Source: an uncultured Pelagibacteraceae bacterium
GTDB lineage: Bacteria > Pseudomonadota > Alphaproteobacteria > Pelagibacterales > Pelagibacteraceae
Assembly: GCA_902556065.1 (NCBI GenBank)
Contig: CACDUV010000001.1
Location: forward strand, 94,534-158,533
Length of the DNA: 64,000 nt
Direction: 5' to 3'
The position numbers were made by a program, and so were the translations under genes. Under the pieces are notes generated by a model. That model was given only the letters and a program-made list of their open reading frames with translations. It was not told where the DNA came from and searched no databases. How positions within the stretch are numbered: position 1 is the stretch's first letter; each line of letters starts with the position of its first letter. This document shows positions 37,892-52,289 of this stretch, piece after piece.

Positions 37892-39019
37892 TTAATAACT
37901 TTTTAGGTATTTTAACCTTCCAATTATCTCGTCTCTGTCCATATAATATCCTTGGAGATGTCTGTGCCCAGAATTTGGATCAAACTCAGTTCTTCCATGA
38001 AGCAATCTTCTATTATTGAAAGAAAAAATATCACCTGGCTCTAATCTAAAATTAATTTGAAATTTATCATCATGTAATAAATTTCCGAAACGGTGATGAG
38101 CTTTATAGACTGAGTCCATTATATCTGGATGACAATCAAGAGCATCCAGTGTTGCAATACTATAACGAATATCATTGTAATCTCCATCTTTAGTCAGTGA
38201 TATTGCTGTTCCATAAACACTTCGGACTGCTTCTTGGGTGTAGTCTTTATCTCTAAATTTAAGCGGAGTATTTACCAATATATCAAAAGTATCTTTCTCG
38301 TTATTTTTTAAATAATCTGCCACAGCAAATGCATCTACAGCTGAGGAGTCACCACCCTTCGCTGAATTTATTAAACAATGTAAAAATTGATAACCAGGTG
38401 GGTTTTCAAACCAAGGCAAATCCATATGATTTCTTAAAGCGTGCGCTGTGTATGCGGAGTTATTTGGTTTTGGAATATTAATTACTTCAAAGGGGGTATT
38501 AAAAAATGTCTCTCGTGTATGACTAATACGATTTAAAACTTTTAACGCAGAATTTTTTTCTATCGGTGCATTTTTGACTATAGCTATACCAGTATAATGT
38601 AAAAGTTCTAACCACTTAACCAATCCTTCATCTGAATTAATAATTTCATCGTGATCAATTTGAATTGATTTTAAATTTTTTTGTAATGAACTATCCCATA
38701 ACTTGTATGGAGAAACATATTTTTGTTTATTTTTTATGGTATAACAATTTTCTCTAAGCCAATTAGGATCATAATAACTTGTGTGATCTCCTTCACTCCA
38801 TTCAATTTCTAATTTTCCATCTGAACTTATGCAATATTTTGCTGGATTAATGTTTTGCGAGACTTCCAAAATATTAAACATTCTGTGTCTTGAGTCTTTA
38901 TCATGAGCAGTTGGACAATTATCTCTAAGCCAAAGATAATTAAACTTGCTTTCCTCACCATCATTCCAAATAACTTTTAAATATGTTGAATTTTTTTCTA
39001 GTTTAGAAATTGAGCTCAC
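37892..39019 (-). CDS. Gamma-butyrobetaine hydroxylase/TmpA-like Fe(II)/2-oxoglutarate dioxygenase
   Basis: N-terminal WLRDNCP DUF971-type domain; RNHMDLPWFENPPGYQFLHCL; NRRLLHGRTEF. Confidence 0.85.
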   Translation of the reverse strand: MSSISKLEKNSTYLKVIWNDGEESKFNYLWLRDNCPTAHDKDSRHRMFNILEVSQNINPAKYCISSDGKLEIEWSEGDHTSYYDPNWLRENCYTIKNKQKYVSPYKLWDSSLQKNLKSIQIDHDEIINSDEGLVKWLELLHYTGIAIVKNAPIEKNSALKVLNRISHTRETFFNTPFEVINIPKPNNSAYTAHALRNHMDLPWFENPPGYQFLHCLINSAKGGDSSAVDAFAVADYLKNNEKDTFDILVNTPLKFRDKDYTQEAVRSVYGTAISLTKDGDYNDIRYSIATLDALDCHPDIMDSVYKAHHRFGNLLHDDKFQINFRLEPGDIFSFNNRRLLHGRTEFDPNSGHRHLQGYYMDRDEIIGRLKYLKSY

Positions 39020-39149: not shown

Positions 39150-40166
39150 ATGAAGTTTTTAAAGAAATTAACAATCTCAATTTTCCTTCTGTCATCTTTG
39201 CTTGCGACAAGTGCAAATGCTGGCGAATGTAAAGCAAGATTGGGAGACTTTGACTGGAGTAGTGCTAACATTCATACGGCAATTACTACTTTTATTCTTG
39301 AAAAAGGATACGGGTGTGAAGTTTCTGTAACTAAAGGAAGTACTACCCCAATAATGGCTGCTCATTACGACGGTCAATTAGATGTTATTACTGAAGTTTG
39401 GTATGACAACATTATTGCTAATTACGAGCCACATGAAAAGGCTGGCACTATTATTAATATTGGAGTCAACACTCCTGACTCACAACAAGCTTTCTATGTA
39501 GATAAAACAACAGCTGATAAATACAATTTGAAATCAGTTGATGATATGAAAGATCCAAAAATTGCAGCTTTATTTAAAGACCCAGAAGATCCTTCAAAAG
39601 GACGTATGACTAGCTGTATATCTGGTTGGACTTGTTATACTGTAAACTTGGTTAAACAAATAGAGTATGGTTTAGATGAATACTATACTAACTTTGATCC
39701 AGGTTCAGGTGGAGCATTAGATGCTGCTATAGCAGGAGCTTTTGCCAAGAAAAAACCAATCTTTACATATTACTGGGCGCCAACTGGTTTAATGGGTAAA
39801 GTTGACCTAGTTAGACTTACAGAGCCAAAATTTGATTCTGATTGTTGGAATTCTATGTCTGCAGTTGTTGAAGATATTAAAGCAAACGGACCAGATGCTT
39901 ACAAAAAAAGCTGTGCATGTGAATATAGAGATATGGCTTTGACAAAATCTGTTTTAACTGATTGGGCGAAAGCTAATCCTAAAGAAACTGATTTCTTAAA
40001 GAAATATACTATTCCAACAGCTACAGTTAACAAAATGTTAGCTTTTTACGAAGATGAGTCAGATGGTGATATGGAACTTACTGCGATGCACTTCTTAAAA
40101 AATGAAAGCATGTGGAAAGATTGGGTGCCAGCAGACGTTGCTAAAAAAGTTAGCGCCGCTCTATAA
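39150..40166 (+). CDS. Glycine betaine/quaternary amine-type ABC substrate-binding protein
   Basis: Signal peptide; OpuAC/ProX-like; adjacent ProW/ProV-like genes. Confidence 0.87.
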   Translation: MKFLKKLTISIFLLSSLLATSANAGECKARLGDFDWSSANIHTAITTFILEKGYGCEVSVTKGSTTPIMAAHYDGQLDVITEVWYDNIIANYEPHEKAGTIINIGVNTPDSQQAFYVDKTTADKYNLKSVDDMKDPKIAALFKDPEDPSKGRMTSCISGWTCYTVNLVKQIEYGLDEYYTNFDPGSGGALDAAIAGAFAKKKPIFTYYWAPTGLMGKVDLVRLTEPKFDSDCWNSMSAVVEDIKANGPDAYKKSCACEYRDMALTKSVLTDWAKANPKETDFLKKYTIPTATVNKMLAFYEDESDGDMELTAMHFLKNESMWKDWVPADVAKKVSAAL

Positions 40167-40187
40167 TCCAATATCATAAATAATTAT

Positions 40188-40211
40188 GAAAGAGCCCTTC
40201 GGGGCTCTTTC
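40188..40211 (+). terminator. Hairpin with UUCG tetraloop between SBP and permease
   Basis: GAAAGAGCCC-TTCG-GGGCTCTTTC followed by TTTAATT. Confidence 0.88.
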
Positions 40212-40229
40212 TTTAATTAGATTTAAATT

Positions 40230-41261
40230 ATGGAAGCATTAAAGAAAAATAAAAAAATATTTTTTAATATTGGTTTGCTCGTTATCTTTGTATGGTTATT
40301 AATAACTAGTTATTCTCAATCAAAAAGAAAACCTGACAATATTGGAGAATTATTAAATGATTTTTCATGGTTAGGGGGTAAATGGCCAAAGTGGCTAGAT
40401 TTACCATTAATGAATTGGATCAATGTTGGTTTCAAAACACTTAATGAAAAATATGGGTACATATTTGAAGCTATTAATAATGTTCTTCTTTATATGTTAA
40501 TGCTTGTAAAAAACTTTTTAATTCAAGCTCCATGGCCATTGGTTATACTTGGTGTAGTAGTTCTAACTTATTTTGCAAGTGGAAGAAAAGTTGGAACGAC
40601 AGTATTTGTAGGGTTTTGTACTTTTTTTATAGGGTTTCTTCACCCAATATTTTGGCAAAAAGCAATTGAAACAACTGCTATAATGTTAATTGGAATATTT
40701 CTTTGTGTTGTTGCGGGCATTCCATTGGGAATAGCGATGGCAAGAAGCGTAAGAACAAGAAATGTAATTTTACCAGTTTTAGATTTAATGCAAACTATTC
40801 CTAGTTTCTGTTACTTAATTCCAGGTATTATGTTATTTGGTTTAGGAGCAGTTCCAGCGATTATAGCTACATTTATTTATGCGGTTCCTCCTTTAGTAAG
40901 ACTTACAGATTTAGGTATAAGGCTTGTTGATACTGAGGTTATTGAAGCCGCAGATGCATTTGGTGCAAGTAAAAAACAAAAGCTATGGGGGGTGCAAATG
41001 CCATTAGCTTTACCTAATATAATGCAAGGTATTAATCAGTGTACAATGATGGCATTAGCTATGGTAGTTATTGCATCGATGATAGGAACTAGAGGTTTGG
41101 GGGATGAAGTTTTACTTGGACTTCAACAATTAAATGTGGGAAGAGCTGCTGAAGCAGGGATCGCAATTGTGCTATTGGCAATAGTTCTTGATAGGATAAC
41201 TCAGTCTTACGGAGAAACTCTGCAAGAGAGAACAGCTCCAAATACAAAGAAAGGTAAATAA
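40230..41261 (+). CDS. Glycine betaine/proline-type ABC permease (ProW-like)
   Basis: GIPLGIAMARS, PSFCYLIPGIMLFGLGAVPAIIATFIYAVPPLVRLTDLGIRLVD, EAADAFGASKKQKLWGVQMPLALPNIM. Confidence 0.92.
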   Translation: MEALKKNKKIFFNIGLLVIFVWLLITSYSQSKRKPDNIGELLNDFSWLGGKWPKWLDLPLMNWINVGFKTLNEKYGYIFEAINNVLLYMLMLVKNFLIQAPWPLVILGVVVLTYFASGRKVGTTVFVGFCTFFIGFLHPIFWQKAIETTAIMLIGIFLCVVAGIPLGIAMARSVRTRNVILPVLDLMQTIPSFCYLIPGIMLFGLGAVPAIIATFIYAVPPLVRLTDLGIRLVDTEVIEAADAFGASKKQKLWGVQMPLALPNIMQGINQCTMMALAMVVIASMIGTRGLGDEVLLGLQQLNVGRAAEAGIAIVLLAIVLDRITQSYGETLQERTAPNTKKGK

Positions 41262-42286
41262 TGTCTAAAATTGAGATTAACAATGTTTATAAAATCTTCG
41301 GTAACAATCCTCAATCTGTAATGCCTATGGTAAAAGGTGGGGCGAACAAAGAAGAGGTTTTAGAACAAACTGGTCATACAGTTGGTCTTGATGATGTTTC
41401 ATTAAAAATAGAAGAAGGTGAAACTTTTGTTTGTATGGGTTTGTCAGGATCTGGAAAATCAACTCTAATTAGGCATTTAAATAGATTAATTGATCCAACA
41501 GACGGTGAGATCTTGGTTGAAGGTACAAATGTTATGTCATTTAATAAAGATCAACTGATTGAATTTAGAAGACACAAAATGAGTATGGTGTTTCAAAGAT
41601 TTGGATTATTCCCTCACAAAACAGTTATACAAAACGTTGGTTATGGTTTGGAAATGCAAGGTAAACCTGAGGATGAGAGATACAGAGTTGCGATGGAAAA
41701 AATTGATGCTGTCGGATTAAATGGATTTGAAAATCAATTTCCAAATCAATTATCAGGTGGAATGCAACAACGTGTCGGTTTAGCTAGAGCTCTTGCTACA
41801 GACAGCGATATTATGCTTATGGATGAAGCTTTCAGTGCGTTAGATCCACTGATTAGAAGTGATATGCAAAAACAGTTACTTGATCTTCAATCAGAATTAA
41901 AAAAAACTATTGTATTTATTACTCACGACTTAGATGAGTCTCTTAGACTTGGTGATCATATTGGAATACTAAATGCTGGAAAATTAGTTCAAGTTGGAAC
42001 TCCCGTGGATATCATTATGAACCCAGCAGATGATTATGTAAAAGCTTTTGTAAAAGATGTAAATAGAGCAAAAGTTATTAAAGCCAAAGTTATTATGAAA
42101 GATATTAATAATGCTAATGATATTGATAAGTCCAGTTTAATAAAAGTAAATGAAGATCAGTTTATTGAGGAATTCCTGCCACAAATAGTTTGTTCAAATT
42201 CAAACTGTGAGGTAGTTGATAAAAGTGGAAATGTTAAAGGCTATATATCTAATAAAGAATTACAGTCATCTTTAACAAAATCATAA
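41261..42286 (+). CDS. Glycine betaine/proline-type ABC ATPase (ProV-like)
   Basis: MGLSGSGKSTLIRHLNRLIDPT, LSGGMQQRVGLARALA, IMLMDEAFSALDPLIR, CBS-like C-terminus. Confidence 0.93.
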   Translation: MSKIEINNVYKIFGNNPQSVMPMVKGGANKEEVLEQTGHTVGLDDVSLKIEEGETFVCMGLSGSGKSTLIRHLNRLIDPTDGEILVEGTNVMSFNKDQLIEFRRHKMSMVFQRFGLFPHKTVIQNVGYGLEMQGKPEDERYRVAMEKIDAVGLNGFENQFPNQLSGGMQQRVGLARALATDSDIMLMDEAFSALDPLIRSDMQKQLLDLQSELKKTIVFITHDLDESLRLGDHIGILNAGKLVQVGTPVDIIMNPADDYVKAFVKDVNRAKVIKAKVIMKDINNANDIDKSSLIKVNEDQFIEEFLPQIVCSNSNCEVVDKSGNVKGYISNKELQSSLTKS

Positions 42287-42289
42287 TTA

Positions 42290-43078
42290 ATGGTTAACCA
42301 ATCATTAAAGAATAAAAAAATAATAATTTCTGCAGGAGCATCTGGAATAGGTTTAGCTACAGCCAAATTATGTCTTGCACGCGGAGCATATGTTTATCTT
42401 TGTGATATTGACACTAAATCTTTAAACAAACTCAATAAACATCCTTTAAAAAACAAAAGATTGTTTGCATACGCATGTGATGCCTCAGATGAAAATCAAG
42501 TTTCAGATTTATTTAAAAATATAAATAAAAAAACAAAAAAAATCGATGCTTTAATAAATAATGTTGGAATTGCCGGACCAACTGGATCTCTTGAAAAATT
42601 AAAATCTGAAGATTGGGAAAATACCTTACATGTAGATGTAAATAGCCACTTCTATTTCACAAAAAAAGCTATTCCATTACTTAAAAAATCTAAAAATGGT
42701 TCAATAATCAATATTTCATCAACAGCTGGAATTCTTGGTTTTCCTCTTAGGTCTCCTTATGCTGCAAGTAAATGGGCAATAATTGGAGTTACAAAAACCT
42801 TAGCTATGGAGCTTGGCAAATTTAACATTAGAGTGAACGCAGTGTGTCCCGGAACAATTAAGGGAGACAGAATGAAAAGAGTTATAAAAGATAAAGCAAA
42901 ATTTACTAAAGTTTCAACAAAAGTAATTGAAAAAGATTTTGTTTCAATGAGCTCAATGAAACAATGGATTTTGGAGGAGGATATTGGAAAAATGTGTTCT
43001 TTTCTAATTTCTGATGACTCAACCAAAGTTTCTGGACAAGTAATTTCTGTTGATGGTCACACAGAAAGAAATGATTAG
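42290..43078 (+). CDS. Short-chain dehydrogenase/reductase
   Basis: SAGASGIGLATAKL, NNVGIAGP, SPYAASKWA, NAVCPG. Confidence 0.93.
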   Translation: MVNQSLKNKKIIISAGASGIGLATAKLCLARGAYVYLCDIDTKSLNKLNKHPLKNKRLFAYACDASDENQVSDLFKNINKKTKKIDALINNVGIAGPTGSLEKLKSEDWENTLHVDVNSHFYFTKKAIPLLKKSKNGSIINISSTAGILGFPLRSPYAASKWAIIGVTKTLAMELGKFNIRVNAVCPGTIKGDRMKRVIKDKAKFTKVSTKVIEKDFVSMSSMKQWILEEDIGKMCSFLISDDSTKVSGQVISVDGHTERND

Positions 43079-43079
43079 T

Positions 43080-44021
43080 TTATCTTAATTTTTTTTCGTA
43101 TTTTTTTCTAAGCTTTTGAAGCTCAACTAAATATTCATCTCTAATATTTGAGATTTTGGTAACTGATTTTCCTTTAGATTGTTTTTTCGTTCCTTTAACT
43201 AATCTATCAATTAACTTGTTTGATAATTTTGGAGCCTTAAGTTTTGTCCATGGAAGTTTTAAAGCTGGTCCAAATTGTTCTAACATGTGTCTCATACCAG
43301 CTTTTCCTCCAGCTAAATGAAAAGTTAGAAAGGTTCCCATTAATGACCATCTTAAACCTGGTCCATCTTCAATTGCTCTATCTAAATCCTCTGTAGTTGC
43401 GTGACCTTCGTTAATTATGTGTAGCCCTTCTCTCCACAAAGCTTCCTGCAATCTATCCGATAAATAACCTGGCAACTCATGTTTAACCATTATTGGATTC
43501 ATAGAAATTGATTTATAAAATTTTTTAGCCAAATTTAAATTTTTTTTTGAAGTTTTCTTACCTGGAACAATTTCTACGGCAGGCAATAAATAAACAGGAT
43601 TAAATGGATGTCCAATTATTCCCCTCTCTGGATTTTTACATTTAGAATAAATTCTTGTTGGTAGCAATCCTGATGAACTTGATGAAATAATTGCACTAGG
43701 TTTAGAATATTTTCCAATAGTGCTCATCAACTTAGTTTTTAAAGTATAATTTTCAGTTGCACATTCTTGAATAAAATCTGCATCCCTTAAAGCTTCATCA
43801 ATAGAAGTAAAATATTTAAAATTTTTAAAATTAATTGTTTTTTTATTGAAAAGTTTTTTTACATAGGGCCAAGTTCTTTTAATCTCAGTAATTAAATTTT
43901 TTTTTAATTTAATATCTTTGTCATAAGCATGAACAATTTTATTATGAGCCAAACATCTGATGATCCAGCCTGTACCAATTACTCCAGTTCCAATAACTGC
44001 TATTTTTTTAATTTGAGACAT
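43080..44021 (-). CDS. L-carnitine dehydrogenase-like (3-hydroxyacyl-CoA DH fold)
   Basis: AVIGTGVIGTGWIIRCLAHN, SSSSGLLPTRI, GHPFNPVYLLPAVEIVPG, FHLAGGKAGMRHMLEQFGPALKLPWTKL. Confidence 0.8.
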   Translation of the reverse strand: MSQIKKIAVIGTGVIGTGWIIRCLAHNKIVHAYDKDIKLKKNLITEIKRTWPYVKKLFNKKTINFKNFKYFTSIDEALRDADFIQECATENYTLKTKLMSTIGKYSKPSAIISSSSSGLLPTRIYSKCKNPERGIIGHPFNPVYLLPAVEIVPGKKTSKKNLNLAKKFYKSISMNPIMVKHELPGYLSDRLQEALWREGLHIINEGHATTEDLDRAIEDGPGLRWSLMGTFLTFHLAGGKAGMRHMLEQFGPALKLPWTKLKAPKLSNKLIDRLVKGTKKQSKGKSVTKISNIRDEYLVELQKLRKKYEKKLR

Positions 44022-44908
44022 TACTTGTGTTTAACAAGTTTTAACTTTTCTCTAGTTTCTGATGGTGTCATTGGGGCATAGCCAAGTTCATCTATAATTC
44101 TTACAGCTTTTTCTACCAATTGAGCGTTAGTAGCTAATTTACCTTTAGATAAATATAAATTATCCTCTAATCCAACTCTTGGGTTCCCTCCCATCAAAAC
44201 GGTTTGAGCAACAAATGGCATTTCATTTTTTGAAATTGCAAAACCTGACCAAATCCCTTCTTTTGGCATTATATCTTTCATGGCTTGCATAGCTAATGTT
44301 GTAGCAGGTGCTCCCCATGGAATTCCTAAACACATTTGAAACATTGGTGGATCACTTAATAACCCTTCTTTATATAATTGCGCACCAAACCACATGTTTC
44401 CTAAATCAAAAGCTTCTATTTCTGGTTTAACTTTTATCTCTTTTAATTTCTTTGCTGCTTTTCTTAAATCATTTGGTGTATTAACTGTAATTACTGAGCT
44501 ATCACCAAAATTTAAAGTACCCGCATCTAGAGTGCAAATTTCTGGAAGAAATTGTTCAGCGTTTGCAATTCTTTCCATTACATTTGCCATATCAGTCATA
44601 GGACCAAAATCTAAAGGATTTTTACCTTGTCCAATATCAAGATCTCCCCCCATACCTGTTGTTAAATTTAATATTACATCTGTGTCACTTGAACGAACTC
44701 TATCTACAACCTCTTTATATAACTCTAATCTTCTACTTGGTGTTCCGTCTTCTTCCCTCACATGTATATGAGCAATAGCAGCTCCTGCTTTTGCAGCTTC
44801 AATTGATGCTTTAGCAATTTGTTCTGGTGTTTTTGGTAAATCTGGATGCTTGCTTGCGGTATCTCCTGACCCCGTAACAGCACATGATATGAATACCTTG
44901 TTGTTCAT
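44021..44908 (-). CDS. BKACE family enzyme, candidate 3-dehydrocarnitine cleavage enzyme (CdhC-like)
   Basis: ISCAVTGSGDTASKHPDLPKTPEQIA, AIAHIHVREEDGTPSRRLELYKEVVDRVR, NLTTGMGGD. Confidence 0.83.
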   Translation of the reverse strand: MNNKVFISCAVTGSGDTASKHPDLPKTPEQIAKASIEAAKAGAAIAHIHVREEDGTPSRRLELYKEVVDRVRSSDTDVILNLTTGMGGDLDIGQGKNPLDFGPMTDMANVMERIANAEQFLPEICTLDAGTLNFGDSSVITVNTPNDLRKAAKKLKEIKVKPEIEAFDLGNMWFGAQLYKEGLLSDPPMFQMCLGIPWGAPATTLAMQAMKDIMPKEGIWSGFAISKNEMPFVAQTVLMGGNPRVGLEDNLYLSKGKLATNAQLVEKAVRIIDELGYAPMTPSETREKLKLVKHK

Positions 44909-44955: not shown

Positions 44956-45423
44956 ATGTCTTTTCACATAACAAACCAAACAATCAAAAAAGAATGGACT
45001 GATTATAATAATCATATGAACATGGCTTACTATGTCTTAGTTTTTGATCAGACTTGGGAGATCATTCTAGAAAAGTTCAAGATGGGTGAAAAATCAGCAA
45101 AGGATACCCAAAGAAGTACCATGGTTGTTGAAACTCGCACTACATATGATGGTGAAGTTAAAGAGGGAGATGAAGTAGAAATTGTTTTAACCTTCTTTGA
45201 TCATGATAAAAAGAGATTACATTTTAAGATGGAAATGATTGAAAAATCATCAAAAAAATTATCAGCAACTATTGAAATGTTAGCTCTTTATATTGATCTT
45301 AGTAAAAGAAAAGTTACAGAATTTGAAGATGAAAAAATTAAAATTATGGATAACTTCATAAATGAAAATAAAAATGAATTTAATTCCGATAATTTATCCA
45401 TTATTGGAAAACTTAAAAAATGA
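44956..45423 (+). CDS. Hotdog thioesterase, candidate betainyl-CoA thioesterase (CdhB-like)
   Basis: DYNNHMNMAYYVLVFDQTWE hotdog motif; divergent to CdhA/CdhC-like pair. Confidence 0.75.
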   Translation: MSFHITNQTIKKEWTDYNNHMNMAYYVLVFDQTWEIILEKFKMGEKSAKDTQRSTMVVETRTTYDGEVKEGDEVEIVLTFFDHDKKRLHFKMEMIEKSSKKLSATIEMLALYIDLSKRKVTEFEDEKIKIMDNFINENKNEFNSDNLSIIGKLKK

Positions 45424-46250
45424 TTGATGTAAAATTATTATCAGGAGCATTAGGTGCTGAAATAAGTGGAATTGACTTGACTGACGTTTCAGATGAAAAT
45501 TTTAAAAGAATAAATAACCTATTATTAGAACACAAAGTTATATTTTTTCGAAATCAACCTTTGACTTCAGAACAACATGTTGCTTTAGCTTCAAAATTTG
45601 GACCATTAGAAACACATGCTTATGTAAGAGGTTTAAGTGAATTCCCCGAAATAATAAGAATAATAAAAAAGCCTGAAGAAAAAACACAATGGGGTGAAGG
45701 TTGGCATTCAGATGTTAGCTATAACGAAAAACCAACTAAAGCTGTAATTTTAAAATCAATTAAAATTCCACCAGTTGGAGGAGATACTGTTTTCTCAAAC
45801 ATGGAACTTGCATGGGAGACCCTAGAAGAAGAGATAAAAAATAAAATCAAAAATAAAAAAGCAGTTCATTCCTCATTAGGAGGTGGGTTTTTCCTTGATA
45901 AATATAAAGCAATGCAAAGTAATGGAAATATGGATGAATATTCAAATACTCATCCAATTTTAAGAACTCATCCAGAAACAGGTAAAAAAATTCTTTTTGT
46001 AAATTGGACTTACACAAAAGAAATTGTTGCTATGGACAAAGAAGAAAGTAAAGAGATATTAAATTATTTATTTGAACATCAGGCAAGATTAGATCTTACT
46101 TGTAGATTTAAATGGACCGAAAATGCAGTGGCTATTTGGGATAATAGAAGTGTTCAGCATTATGCTATTGCTGATTTTTATCCAAATAAAGGCCTTGGTT
46201 TTGAAAGAGTAATGGATCGTATAGCTGTTGAAGGGGATCATCCACAATAA
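45420..46250 (+). CDS. TauD/TfdA family Fe(II)/2OG dioxygenase
   Basis: GWHSDVSY and VQHYAIAD facial triad; LGAEISGIDL N-terminus. Confidence 0.9.
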   Translation: MIDVKLLSGALGAEISGIDLTDVSDENFKRINNLLLEHKVIFFRNQPLTSEQHVALASKFGPLETHAYVRGLSEFPEIIRIIKKPEEKTQWGEGWHSDVSYNEKPTKAVILKSIKIPPVGGDTVFSNMELAWETLEEEIKNKIKNKKAVHSSLGGGFFLDKYKAMQSNGNMDEYSNTHPILRTHPETGKKILFVNWTYTKEIVAMDKEESKEILNYLFEHQARLDLTCRFKWTENAVAIWDNRSVQHYAIADFYPNKGLGFERVMDRIAVEGDHPQ

Positions 46251-46253
46251 TAA

Positions 46254-46790
46254 ATGAAGATAATTTATAAAATCATTTCAAATTTTATAAATAATAAATC
46301 TTTGTACATTGGAGAGAAAGTAACTATGTCAGAACATATGATTCAGTCAGCAATGCTTGCTGAAAAAGCTAAATGTAATGATGATTTAATTTGTGCATGT
46401 TTACTTCATGATTATGGTCATTTTCTTTTAGAAGATCCTGAAGAATTAGTTAAAAATAAATTAAATGGAGAGCATGAAAATATTGGATATCAGTATTTAA
46501 AAAAATTTTTTGGACAAAAAATTGTTGAGCCAATTAAATACCATGTTTTGGCTAAACGTTATTTAGCTCGAGACAAAAAATATTTTGATTTTTTATCAGA
46601 TGCGTCAAAAATAAGCCTCAAATTACAAGGCGGAGTTTTAAATGACAAAGAAAGTAAAAAGTTTGAAAATAAATCTTACTTTAAGCCATCAATTCTTCTT
46701 CGAAAATTTGATGAAGCCGCTAAAAGAACTGACATAAAAATGAAATCTATTCATGACTATGAAAAGTTGTTAAGTTCAAAACTTATATGA
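46254..46790 (+). CDS. HD-domain protein, PhnZ/TmpB-like oxygenase candidate
   Basis: SEHMIQSAMLAE, CLLHDYGHFL, EHENIGYQYL, KYHVLAKRYL, FLSDASKISLKLQGG, RKFDEAAKRTD, resembles PhnZ (from memory). Confidence 0.72.
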   Translation: MKIIYKIISNFINNKSLYIGEKVTMSEHMIQSAMLAEKAKCNDDLICACLLHDYGHFLLEDPEELVKNKLNGEHENIGYQYLKKFFGQKIVEPIKYHVLAKRYLARDKKYFDFLSDASKISLKLQGGVLNDKESKKFENKSYFKPSILLRKFDEAAKRTDIKMKSIHDYEKLLSSKLI

Positions 46791-48367
46791 ATTTCGATTA
46801 TTTAATCATTGGCGCTGGAAGTGCAGGCTGTGTACTTGCAAATCGATTAACAGAAAATGATCAAAACAATGTAGCCATATTTGAAGCTGGGAAACCCAGT
46901 GATATCTGGAAAGTCAACATGCCACTTGCGATTTTATACACAATGCATGATCCAAAGTATAACTACAAATATTATTCAGAACCAGAACCTCATCTACATA
47001 ACAGAAGATTATTTTGTCCAAGAGGAAAAATGATTGGTGGATGTTCTGCGCATAATGGAATGGTATTCGTAAGAGGTAATCCGAATGATTATCAAAGATG
47101 GGCATCATTTGGATTGGAAGATTGGTCTTATGAAAAAGTTCTTCCCTATTTTAAAAAAATTGAAACATGGTCTGAGGGAGAAAATGAATATCGTGGTGGC
47201 AGTGGAATACTACCAGTAAACCAATCTAAAAATAAAAACCCTTTATTCAAAGCATTTGTCGATTCAGCTGGTGAAGCAGGCTACAAAATAAATAATGACA
47301 TGAATGGTAAAGAACAAGAAGGTTTTGGAATGTACGATGTTACTATCCATAAAGGAGAGAGAGCAAGTGTATCTAAGTATTATTTAAATCCTGCTAAAAA
47401 AAGAAAAAACCTTAAAGTATTTACAGAAGCTTTTGTTGAAAGAATAATTTTTGATGGAAAAAAAGCAATTGGAATTGAAGTAAAAATAAAAAATAAAGTC
47501 GAAAAGATTTATGCTAATAAAGAAGTAATTTTAAGTGGAGGAGCAATCAATTCACCGCAATTACTAATGCTTTCTGGAATTGGTCCAAGCCAACACTTAA
47601 AAGATAAAGGAATTAGTATTGTTCACAACTTAGATGGTGTTGGAAAAAACTTACAGGATCACTTGGAAACTTATGTTCAGCAAGAATGCAAAACTAAAGA
47701 CACCTTATACTCATACGTTAATAAGTTAAATATGGTTAGAATTGGAATTCAATGGTTTTTGAATAAAAGTGGTCCTTGTTCTACTTCTTTCTTGGAAGCT
47801 GGAGGATTTTGTAAATCATCTCCAGAAAGAGAGTATCCAAATATTCAATTTCATTTTTTTCCTGCCTTTGTAATCGATCATGGATTAGTTGATCCAGATA
47901 GGCATGGTTATCAGTTACATGCAAGTCCAAACCATCCAAAAAGTAGAGGTCATATAACTTTAAACAGCTCAAACCCTTATGATTATCCAAAAATTCAATT
48001 TAATTATCTAGAACATGGGGATGATTTAAAACAAACAATAGAATGTATTCATGTAGCTAGAAAAATTTTAGGACAAGACTCTTTGAAGCCTTTTGCAGGA
48101 AAAGAGATTGGACCAGGAGAACATGCTCAAACTAATGAGGTATTCGAAGAATACATTAGATCTAAAGCTGAGACTGCTTACCACCCATCTTGTACTTTAA
48201 AAATGGGAGTAGACAATATGTCTGTTGTAGATCAAAAACTAAAAGTTCATGGTGTTGAAAATCTAAGAGTAGTTGATGCGTCTGTAATGCCTGAAATTAC
48301 AAGCGGAAACCTTAACGCTCCAACATTAATGATTGCTGAAAGAGCATCCGAATTTATTTTAAATTAA
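46787..48367 (+). CDS. GMC oxidoreductase, choline dehydrogenase-like
   Basis: FDYLIIGAGSAGCVLANRL, RGKMIGGCSAHNGMVFVRGNPNDY, VDASVMPEITSGNLNAPTLMIAERASE. Confidence 0.9.
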   Translation: MNFDYLIIGAGSAGCVLANRLTENDQNNVAIFEAGKPSDIWKVNMPLAILYTMHDPKYNYKYYSEPEPHLHNRRLFCPRGKMIGGCSAHNGMVFVRGNPNDYQRWASFGLEDWSYEKVLPYFKKIETWSEGENEYRGGSGILPVNQSKNKNPLFKAFVDSAGEAGYKINNDMNGKEQEGFGMYDVTIHKGERASVSKYYLNPAKKRKNLKVFTEAFVERIIFDGKKAIGIEVKIKNKVEKIYANKEVILSGGAINSPQLLMLSGIGPSQHLKDKGISIVHNLDGVGKNLQDHLETYVQQECKTKDTLYSYVNKLNMVRIGIQWFLNKSGPCSTSFLEAGGFCKSSPEREYPNIQFHFFPAFVIDHGLVDPDRHGYQLHASPNHPKSRGHITLNSSNPYDYPKIQFNYLEHGDDLKQTIECIHVARKILGQDSLKPFAGKEIGPGEHAQTNEVFEEYIRSKAETAYHPSCTLKMGVDNMSVVDQKLKVHGVENLRVVDASVMPEITSGNLNAPTLMIAERASEFILN

Positions 48368-48369
48368 AA

Positions 48370-49395
48370 TTATTTGTTACGATAAACCGAGATTAAACAA
48401 ATAATTTCAAACATTATAGAAGCTGCAACCATTGCTGTAATTTGATTTGGACTATCTTTTGTTGGCATTAAACAAGCAACATCTCCTCCAATTACATTTT
48501 TTCCTTTTAAACACTGAATCAGCTTACGTGCTTCATCCATATTAAATCCTTTATACGCAGGCTCTATATTTGCTACTCCTGGAGCTACTGCTGGATCTAA
48601 ACAATCTAAATCGAAAGTAACATAAATTGGATTGTCACCTAGTCTATCTAAAATCATTTTCACACATTTTTCATGACCCCATTCTCTATATTCATCCATT
48701 GTAATTACTTGATAACCAATATCGTAACTTGCTTGTAACCAATCTAATGTTCTTGGATTTCCTCTTATACCTATCTGAGTACTTGTATGTGGATCAACAT
48801 TTCCTTGTTTAACTAAATAAGAAGCCCAATGTGCTGCTGATTTTTTTGCGCCTAGAAAATGATCTAATTTTTCAAAACAATCTGTATGGGCATCAAAATG
48901 TAGAAATGTTATTTTTTTTCCTTTAGTTAATTTTGAATTCTTTTTTGCTAAACTTTGAACAATTCCTCCAGTTACCGAATGATCTCCACCAATTGAAACA
49001 ACTGGTTTTTCAGCTTGTTCTATATGATCGTAAAAAGCCGAAATTCTTTCTATACATTTTTCATTATCATTAGCTTCTGGAAAAGGAACATCTCCCAAAT
49101 CGTGAATTTTATTTTCTTTCCAAGGATCAATTTTGTAATCAAAGTGAGATCGTCTCAACATTGCAGAAATATTTCTAACTGCTCTTGGACCTAAATGCTG
49201 ATCTCTTTCGGTAGTTCCATTCCCAGTACTATGAGGAACGCCTACTAACGCTATGTCACAATTTTTCGGGTCTGGATCATTTTTACATCTAAATAAAGTT
49301 GGTATACCCCACCAATAAAGGGTTTCCATCATTATTTTATCTTCTTCAGAAATCATGAATAGAATATTGCATAAATTTAATAAATTTAAAAACAC
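48370..49395 (-). CDS. Divergent ureohydrolase (agmatinase/arginase family)
   Basis: SIGGDHSV, HFDAHTDCFE, TFDLDCLDPAVAPGVANIEP; true start may be 49356 or further in. Confidence 0.85.
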   Translation of the reverse strand: MFLNLLNLCNILFMISEEDKIMMETLYWWGIPTLFRCKNDPDPKNCDIALVGVPHSTGNGTTERDQHLGPRAVRNISAMLRRSHFDYKIDPWKENKIHDLGDVPFPEANDNEKCIERISAFYDHIEQAEKPVVSIGGDHSVTGGIVQSLAKKNSKLTKGKKITFLHFDAHTDCFEKLDHFLGAKKSAAHWASYLVKQGNVDPHTSTQIGIRGNPRTLDWLQASYDIGYQVITMDEYREWGHEKCVKMILDRLGDNPIYVTFDLDCLDPAVAPGVANIEPAYKGFNMDEARKLIQCLKGKNVIGGDVACLMPTKDSPNQITAMVAASIMFEIICLISVYRNK

Positions 49396-50370: not shown

Positions 50371-51324
50371 ATGACAAAAGATAATAATTCTAAGGGTATT
50401 ATTTTAATAATCATTGCAATGACATTATTTGCGATGCAAGACTCTTTAATTAAATATATTTTTGAAAAAGCCTCTCTTTATGAGATTTTTTTTGGAAGAT
50501 ACTTTGTTGCTGCTGTTTTGCTTTTTAGTTACATAAAATTTAGAAAACAAAAAGTTTCATTAAAAACTTATTATCCTATTTTAACAATTTTTAGAGTGGT
50601 TCTTCACTTTTTAGCTTTTTCAGCTTTCTTTATTTCTCTTACTTACATGCCCTTAGCAACTGCAAATGCCTTATTTTTCTCTTGTCCTTTTTTTGTGTCT
50701 ATTTTTGCTAAATTTTTTTTGAAAGAATTTATTGGAATAAGAAGATGGTCAGCAATTGTATTTGGTTTCATAGGAGTTTTTATTGTACTTGATCCAAACT
50801 TTTCTGACTTTGAATACAAAAGTTTACTTCCAGTAGTATGTGCATTTTTTTATGCAGCATCCATGACAATAACAAAGTACACATCTGATAAAGACGATGT
50901 AAATACTCAATTATTTTATTTTTATTTAATAGCTCTAATTTTATGTGGTCTTATTTATTTGTTTATGGGAAATGGACAATTAAATAACCCAGACTTTGAT
51001 CCGACTACACAGTTTATTTTTAGAGAATGGTTTTCAAACATCGAATATACATGGAAATTTATCTTATTTTTTGGGTTCGTCGCCTCGATTGCCTTTCTCT
51101 GTATATTTTCTGCCTACATTGTAGCTTCACCTTCTGTAGTTTCTCTTTTTGAATATTCATTAATTATAATGTCAATGATACCTGGATATTTTTTATTTAA
51201 TGAAATTCCATCAAGTAGAACATTTTTTGGAGTTGCGTGTATTATAGCAGCTGGCATTTATATTTACTTTAGAGAAAAAGCTAGAGATCAATATATTGCA
51301 ACAGAAACGCCGGTAAGAAGATGA
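50371..51324 (+). CDS. EamA/DMT transporter (tandem copy 2)
   Basis: Colinear similarity with preceding ORF; starts directly after its stop (TAA|ATG). Confidence 0.87.
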   Translation: MTKDNNSKGIILIIIAMTLFAMQDSLIKYIFEKASLYEIFFGRYFVAAVLLFSYIKFRKQKVSLKTYYPILTIFRVVLHFLAFSAFFISLTYMPLATANALFFSCPFFVSIFAKFFLKEFIGIRRWSAIVFGFIGVFIVLDPNFSDFEYKSLLPVVCAFFYAASMTITKYTSDKDDVNTQLFYFYLIALILCGLIYLFMGNGQLNNPDFDPTTQFIFREWFSNIEYTWKFILFFGFVASIAFLCIFSAYIVASPSVVSLFEYSLIIMSMIPGYFLFNEIPSSRTFFGVACIIAAGIYIYFREKARDQYIATETPVRR

Positions 51325-52289
51325 CCAAAAACTATATACCGACAATCAATATATCATCACTAATTAAAAATAATTTTGAAACTCAAAGTGCTTTTAAAAC
51401 AATTAAAGAAATTGAAAAAGCTTGTGTAAATATAGGTTTTTTCCAAGTGACAGGACATGGACTTAACTTAAAAGAAATTAAAAATATATGTGATGTGGGA
51501 AATAAGTTTTTCAATTTACCAGAAATGAAAAAAAGAAAACTATCGCCAAAAAAGTGGAACAAAAAAAATAAAAATCTTTACAGAGGTTATTTTCCAAATG
51601 ATGTGAATGGCAAAGAAGGTTTAGATATAGGAGATTTAAAAATCACTAAGAAATATTCTTCAAAAATTAAAAACCAATATATTGAATTTTTGGATTTAAA
51701 TACATGTTTTAACAAAACTTCTATAAGAGCCTTGAATAAATATTTTGAAAATATTTATAATTTAAGTGAAACTTTGTTTAAAAGTGTGATTAAATTAAAC
51801 AAACTTAATCCAAATCTTTCAAGCAAGGCTTTTTCAAGGTTAAAAACACTTAGCACCTTAAGATTTAATTTTTATCCAAATCAAACAACTCCAGTAGAAA
51901 TTTCTAAACAAGATGGTGTGGCGCTTGGATGTGAAACACATGTTGATAGTGGAATATTTACAGTTCTCTACCAAGATAAAAAAGGTGGTCTTCAAGTACA
52001 GAATAGAAAAACGAAAAAATGGTATGATGTACCATTAAATAAAAAAGCTTTAGTAGTAAATACTGGTAGAGCTTTAGAATTTTTAAGTAGAGGAAAATTT
52101 AAAGCCACAAATCACAGGGTACTATGGAATAAAAGTAAGAGACTTTCTATTCCATTCTTCTTTGAACCCTCTTATGACTTTAAAATGAACAGATCTTTCC
52201 TTAATTCAAAAAAATATTCTAACAGAGGTCAGATTTACGAAAAATTTCTAAATCAATCATTAAAAAAATTTATTGAATATCAACGTTAA
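51321..52289 (+). CDS. Isopenicillin N synthase-like Fe(II)/2OG oxygenase
   Basis: FFQVTGHGL, CETHVDSGIFTVLYQD, ATNHRV, RLSIPFFFEP. Confidence 0.88.
   Translation: MTKNYIPTINISSLIKNNFETQSAFKTIKEIEKACVNIGFFQVTGHGLNLKEIKNICDVGNKFFNLPEMKKRKLSPKKWNKKNKNLYRGYFPNDVNGKEGLDIGDLKITKKYSSKIKNQYIEFLDLNTCFNKTSIRALNKYFENIYNLSETLFKSVIKLNKLNPNLSSKAFSRLKTLSTLRFNFYPNQTTPVEISKQDGVALGCETHVDSGIFTVLYQDKKGGLQVQNRKTKKWYDVPLNKKALVVNTGRALEFLSRGKFKATNHRVLWNKSKRLSIPFFFEPSYDFKMNRSFLNSKKYSNRGQIYEKFLNQSLKKFIEYQR

Follow-up and report, generated by a model that had tools for sequence, protein, structure and literature searches.

The HD-domain gene described here encodes an oxygenase of the PhnZ/TmpB family, which we propose, with a probability of about 0.6, to be the SAR11 counterpart of TmpB, converting hydroxylated trimethylaminoethylphosphonate (TMAEP) and O2 to glycine betaine and phosphate. 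The data directly support the genes, the family, fold and active site of the HD protein, the operon, and its conservation and selection; phosphonate C–P cleavage is the best-supported reaction and the protein most likely works like TmpB, while a residue signature, the locus and co-occurrence with TmpA suggest TMAEP as the substrate. The gene lies in a 64,000-nucleotide stretch of Pelagibacteraceae DNA (the window), in a plus-strand operon ordered thioesterase–TauD–HD–GMC (Table 1). It starts 3 nt past the TauD stop and overlaps the GMC gene by ATGA, as TauD does with the thioesterase, and its product contains the motifs SEHMIQ, LLHDYGH, EHENIG, KYHVLAKRYL, LSDASKISLKLQGG and RKFDEAAKRTD; the motifs, the spacing and the GMC overlap reported in an earlier note on this DNA are all confirmed in the sequence. 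The 4-nt HD/GMC overlap recurs in 78 of 78 loci, some of them redundant, and the TauD–HD gap ranges from −1 to 9 nt across SAR11 loci. Of 290 genomes of the genus, 55 have an HD orthologue, as do 76 SAR11 contigs; the closest relatives are Pelagibacteraceae contigs at up to 99% identity. With a dN/dS of 0.03 to 0.08 against SAR11 orthologues, this is a real gene under strong purifying selection. The GMC protein scores 744 bits on PRK02106 (cut-off 605) and 679.5 bits on the betA model TIGR01810 (cut-off 732.1). An Rfam-threshold scan of 36.5 to 50 kb found no riboswitch and no other known RNA.

Table 1. Genes of the HD operon and of the adjoining carnitine locus in the window.
Feature	Coordinates	Strand	Basis and remarks
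HD-domain diiron oxygenase, SAR11 clade of PhnZ/TmpB family	46254..46790	+	178 aa; proposed (R)-1-hydroxy-TMAEP oxygenase
TauD/RdpA-like Fe(II)/2-oxoglutarate oxygenase	45420..46250	+	276 aa; candidate alpha-hydroxylase
GMC oxidoreductase, choline-dehydrogenase-like (BetA paralogue)	46787..48367	+	526 aa; ATGA-coupled to HD
4HBT thioesterase, probable betainyl-CoA thioesterase	44956..45423	+	ATGA overlap with TauD
BKACE beta-keto acid cleavage enzyme, probable dehydrocarnitine cleavage enzyme	44021..44908	-	PF05853, 1.1e-91; neighbours
L-carnitine dehydrogenase-like 3HCDH protein	43080..44021	-	PRK07066, 361.5 bits (cut-off 414)
SDR-family oxidoreductase of carnitine/betaine locus	42290..43078	+	Family match
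OpuA-like quaternary-ammonium ABC transporter	39150..42286	+	OpuAC, 3.7e-45; glycine betaine/proline binding proteins
Parts of OpuA-like transporter	binding protein 39150-40166; permease 40230-41261; ATPase 41261-42286	+	
Gamma-butyrobetaine dioxygenase (GBBH)-like gene	37892..39019	-	GBBH 317.6 vs TmpA 268.4 bits, both below cut-off

The HD protein matches three NCBIfam models below their cut-offs, namely Phn-HD (TIGR03276; 165 bits, E 1.2e-48, cut-off 214.6), the TmpB equivalog (NF049941; 151.8 bits, E 1.7e-44, cut-off 300) and the PhnZ1 hydroxymethylphosphonate dioxygenase (NF052439; 136.8 bits, E 6e-40, cut-off 300), and by score it falls outside all three curated equivalogs. Among PDB sequences it matches TmpB (3.6e-30) and PhnZ (3.6e-27). 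For an AlphaFold2 model built on 19 relatives (pLDDT 93), the ten best PDB structure matches are all PhnZ or TmpB (TM 0.87–0.91, E ~1e-10 to 1e-11), and MIOX comes next at an E of only 0.25. The diiron ligands are all present (H28, H52, D53, H74, H97 and D153) and, like the YxxE loop and the equivalents of PhnZ H62, K108, S126, Q133 and R158, are conserved in 76 to 77 of 77 SAR11 HDs; we take H62, K108, S126 and R158 of PhnZ to be its phosphonate-binding residues. The YxxE loop, Y18-I-G-E21 in this protein, sets PhnZ and TmpB apart from MIOX (PMC8177086). On the profile and PDB matches, the full ligand set and this loop, the assignment to the PhnZ/TmpB-type diiron oxygenases made in the earlier note stands. 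Family, YxxE and fold together rule out a simple hydrolase or phosphohydrolase, and likewise MIOX. The tree of HD proteins that the same note had proposed recovers the SAR11 HDs as a clade of their own (support 99/100, stem length 1.09; root and deep branches weak), not nested in certified TmpB, and most TmpB-specific columns beyond the first shell are absent from them. The TmpB-type assignment is weakened by this separate clade, by the sub-cut-off TmpB score and by the slightly higher score on Phn-HD.

The residues at positions 25 and 29 (numbering of the window HD), which flank the first His ligand, bear on the identity of the phosphonate. In a comparison that ignores the relatedness of the sequences, HDs adjacent to TmpA have a hydrophobic residue at position 25 in 15 of 17 cases and Met at 29 in 14 of 17, while 18 of 19 HDs that are not TmpA-adjacent are without both signature residues and mostly have Gln 25 with Ala, Gly or Ser 29, the lone exception carrying Ile and Met. 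SAR11 HDs have Met or Ile at 25 in 75 of 77 sequences and Met at 29 in all 77, and the window HD, with M25 and M29, carries the first-shell signature of TmpA-partnered enzymes. This is shared with the TmpA/TmpB system of Leisingera caerulea, which turns TMAEP into glycine betaine and phosphate, together with the HD fold, the diiron ligands and YxxE; the SAR11 HD differs in belonging to a separate clade of ~37–42% identity and in its usual neighbour, a short TauD/RdpA-like oxygenase in place of TmpA. Because the SAR11 clade is distinct from that of certified TmpB, the signature was not trivially inherited within TmpB. An enzyme of the PhnZ kind, acting on hydroxylated 2-aminoethylphosphonate (2-AEP) or on hydroxymethylphosphonate, is an unlikely reading, although it would agree with the family, with the generic Phn-HD score and with the usual interpretation of marine phnZ as 2-AEP catabolism (PMC9381506). 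The window HD has the fold, ligands and YxxE of PhnZ, the partner of PhnY* in converting 2-AEP to glycine and phosphate, but is 34% identical to it, replaces PhnZ Gln31/Ser35 by Met/Met, lacks the Gln plus Ala/Gly/Ser pair of non-TmpA HDs, and has no PhnY*, 2-AEP or Phn genes nearby. With GmPhnY/GmPhnZ1, which converts methylphosphonate to formate and phosphate, it shares the HD family but stays well under the PhnZ1 cut-off given above. An HD that does score best on PhnZ1 (187.8 bits) occurs in a sister family (L042:8819-15050), where this 40%-identical protein accompanies PhnX-like and PhnCDE-like genes in a separate phosphonate cluster.

The setting of the operon, which was absent from the earlier note, points to TMAEP over 2-AEP. 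GBBH, carnitine dehydrogenase, BKACE and thioesterase genes are found together in a grouping conserved in relatives, the 4HBT protein matches the thioesterase portion of fused carnitine 3-dehydrogenase, and, judged from predicted activities, the HD operon belongs to a SAR11 locus for conversion of carnitine to glycine betaine. The window thus holds the components of that pathway and an OpuA-like transporter, and departs from it in the TauD, HD and GMC genes added to the thioesterase operon; the locus showed neither a phosphonate transporter nor a certified TmpA. The GBBH-like gene was considered as a dedicated TmpA partner and rejected, since its GBBH score is the higher one and it is retained with carnitine dehydrogenase regardless of HD; a promiscuous GBBH-like activity as the hydroxylase is possible. 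In several SAR11 loci (L036:10278-11138, L132:7197-8789, L133, L134 and L135), BKACE and the thioesterase are separated by an HpcH/CitE-like lyase of 286 aa; in L132 and L135 an aldolase-like protein (~242 aa) comes before this lyase. The window also encodes an arginase-family protein (48370-49395, minus strand), whose nearest solved structure is 3-guanidinopropionase (6e-45) and which many SAR11 genomes have in the vicinity of their carnitine locus.

Two genomes of another alphaproteobacterial family (L178 and L179) carry TmpA, TmpB, GBBH-like, BKACE and carnitine 3-dehydrogenase genes consecutively on one strand. TmpB scores 313.3 and 311.7 bits in the two operons (cut-off 300); the scores for TmpA (528.2, cut-off 400) and the fused carnitine 3-dehydrogenase (730.1, cut-off 592) come from L178. 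By their predicted functions, these operons place TmpAB inside a pathway with the same product, glycine betaine. Their existence also argues against an HD that breaks a C–C or other bond of a hydroxylated non-phosphonate betaine, as MIOX does with inositol, a reading favoured by HD being the sole phosphonate-specific gene of its locus; with the PhnZ-equivalent Lys, Ser, Arg and His and YxxE all retained and a structure remote from MIOX, we regard this as quite improbable.

Certified TmpA is also found within SAR11 itself, in six of 297 genomes of the family, all in one sister genus. A window-type HD accompanies it in all six, a count drawn from mostly incomplete genomes of a single genus. In two of these genomes, TmpA and HD are divergent neighbours (L119/L181 and L180), the TmpA proteins scoring 541.9 and 531.7 bits (cut-off 400). 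In the other four (G173, G191, G216 and G222), HD adjoins TauD or a piece of it with TmpA elsewhere, and no further HD of the family was found in these mostly incomplete genomes. Because the window-type HD is the sole family HD found, the product of certified TmpA appears to depend on it in these SAR11 genomes, as judged from gene content. The window genome (74% complete) yielded no TmpA at E <= 1e-110.

The immediate neighbour, TauD, is tentatively the first candidate hydroxylase where TmpA is absent, followed by the GBBH-like oxygenase or by a substrate arriving already hydroxylated. By alignment, TauD conserves the iron triad H96/D98/H247, the 2-oxoglutarate Arg and the anion-binding Arg and His of the TauD/RdpA oxygenases (R263, R267 and H66), and its nearest solved structure is RdpA. 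It is 33% identical to Escherichia coli TauD, in which Y73, D94 and N95 are presumably the taurine-amine contacts and correspond to V69, W91 and G92 here, and reaches 230.3 bits on taurine dioxygenase PRK09553 (cut-off 313); the pocket was judged by alignment only, the AlphaFold model being unusable at a mean pLDDT of 51. The earlier note had regarded the known partners as not TauD-type, which does not hold in that TmpA itself belongs to Pfam PF02668 (TauD), while the short TauD/RdpA subfamily, devoid of the GBBH-like N-terminal domain, is indeed an unusual partner.

That note had further proposed TauD and HD as a dedicated pair, in which TauD, having replaced TmpA, would hydroxylate the phosphonate that HD cleaves. 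We hold this sub-case of the TmpB-like reading to be somewhat less probable than its negation. TauD lies directly upstream of HD in 64 of 76 SAR11 loci, with the short gaps given above, its pocket is unlike that of taurine dioxygenase yet keeps the anion clamp, and among 114 GMC operons TauD is more frequent where HD is present (odds ratio 3.5, Fisher p 0.0066, relatedness ignored). These operons divide, however, into 43 with TauD and HD, 38 with TauD only, 8 with HD only (two of them at contig ends) and 25 with neither, TauD occurs in 91 of 290 genomes of the genus, and some SAR11 HDs sit beside certified TmpA instead. TauD is neither necessary nor sufficient, and its pairing with HD is not obligatory. 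Five HD loci without TauD form one clade in the tree and so probably reflect a single loss. Two loci have TauD in two pieces beside an intact HD (L114:844-1664 and L100:9172-9997); the L114 frameshift is perhaps a sequencing error and was excluded from the evidence.

The active-site residues of TauD are identical in HD-linked, unlinked and sister-family copies, so TauD may have its own substrate; from this pattern it probably serves a separate function and may also hydroxylate TMAEP. An alternative to the pair, which we consider plausible at a little under even odds, is that TauD acts on another anionic substrate, for instance taurobetaine or choline-O-sulfate, with betaine aldehyde passing to the GMC enzyme, and that a shared product, glycine betaine, explains why HD was placed between TauD and GMC. 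HD would then receive its hydroxylated substrate from either oxygenase, TmpA or the GBBH-like one, or else from the environment. TauD–GMC operons free of HD and the TmpA genomes that retain a TauD-linked HD are consistent with this, although TauD–HD linkage is still the commonest HD arrangement. In a sister family (L127:6412-9911 and similarly L128-L131 and L141), the TauD orthologue adjoins a DMT exporter together with a divergent protein of the MBL fold, which in L127 is an alkyl sulfatase (PF14863/PF14864); this neighbourhood hints at an organosulfur substrate for TauD; in two SAR11 genomes TauD adjoins an ammonium-transporter-like gene, named from its sequence by eye. Nothing on topic came out of a literature search on taurobetaine and dioxygenases.

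Whichever enzyme supplies its substrate, the TmpB-like reading of HD can be set out as a scheme modelled on the PhnZ/TmpB mechanism (PMC8177086, PMC10574752). TMAEP would be imported, perhaps via the OpuA-like transporter, and hydroxylated at C1 by a 2-oxoglutarate oxygenase; the resulting (R)-1-hydroxy-2-(trimethylammonio)ethylphosphonate would be taken up by a mixed-valent diiron site formed by the six ligands. The YxxE loop (Y18/E21) would gate O2, with Tyr18 leaving Fe2 as O2 binds, and C–P bond breakage would release glycine betaine and phosphate. In parallel, gamma-butyrobetaine and carnitine would reach glycine betaine via GBBH, carnitine dehydrogenase, BKACE and the thioesterase, such that the locus would funnel several imported quaternary ammonium compounds into glycine betaine, with the hydroxylase and HD forming the TMAEP branch.

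SAR11 bacteria are the most abundant marine heterotrophs. Were the short TauD/RdpA-type oxygenase to have replaced TmpA as the TMAEP hydroxylase alongside the SAR11-specific HD clade, which we consider rather doubtful, this would constitute a fifth form of oxidative C–P cleavage, embedded in carnitine/glycine betaine catabolism and present in roughly one in five genomes sampled from the genus. An HD acting on TMAEP would in itself couple the gain of phosphorus to the breakdown of osmolytes within a single operon, and would imply that TMAEP occurs naturally in seawater. One survey interprets phnZ as 2-AEP catabolism and assigns 45% of the marine sequences to Pelagibacterales (PMC9381506), and another survey divides phnZ into subclades, just one of them 2-AEP-specific (PMC8316502). 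If SAR11 HDs of the present clade were in the 45% and act on TMAEP, part of the 2-AEP potential would be misassigned.

Other oxygenases were also noted. At 51321-52289 (plus strand) the window encodes a 2OG-Fe(II) oxygenase that belongs to the isopenicillin-N-synthase/ethylene-forming type, matches no NCBIfam model and is conserved 3' of DMT transporters in SAR11. A second HD family (~184 aa, without YxxE, 37–51 bits on Phn-HD) appears widespread in Pelagibacterales. At two loci (L120:11465-13116 and L139:6446-8088) it adjoins a TmpA-like/GBBH-like oxygenase of 334–347 bits, below the TmpA cut-off, with BHMT/DMGDH-like genes close by; at a third (L183:5209-5763), an HD of this type lies beside BHMT/DMGDH-like genes. 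From this arrangement, the second HD family and its oxygenase are possibly another 2-oxoglutarate oxygenase plus HD pair acting on some betaine substrate.
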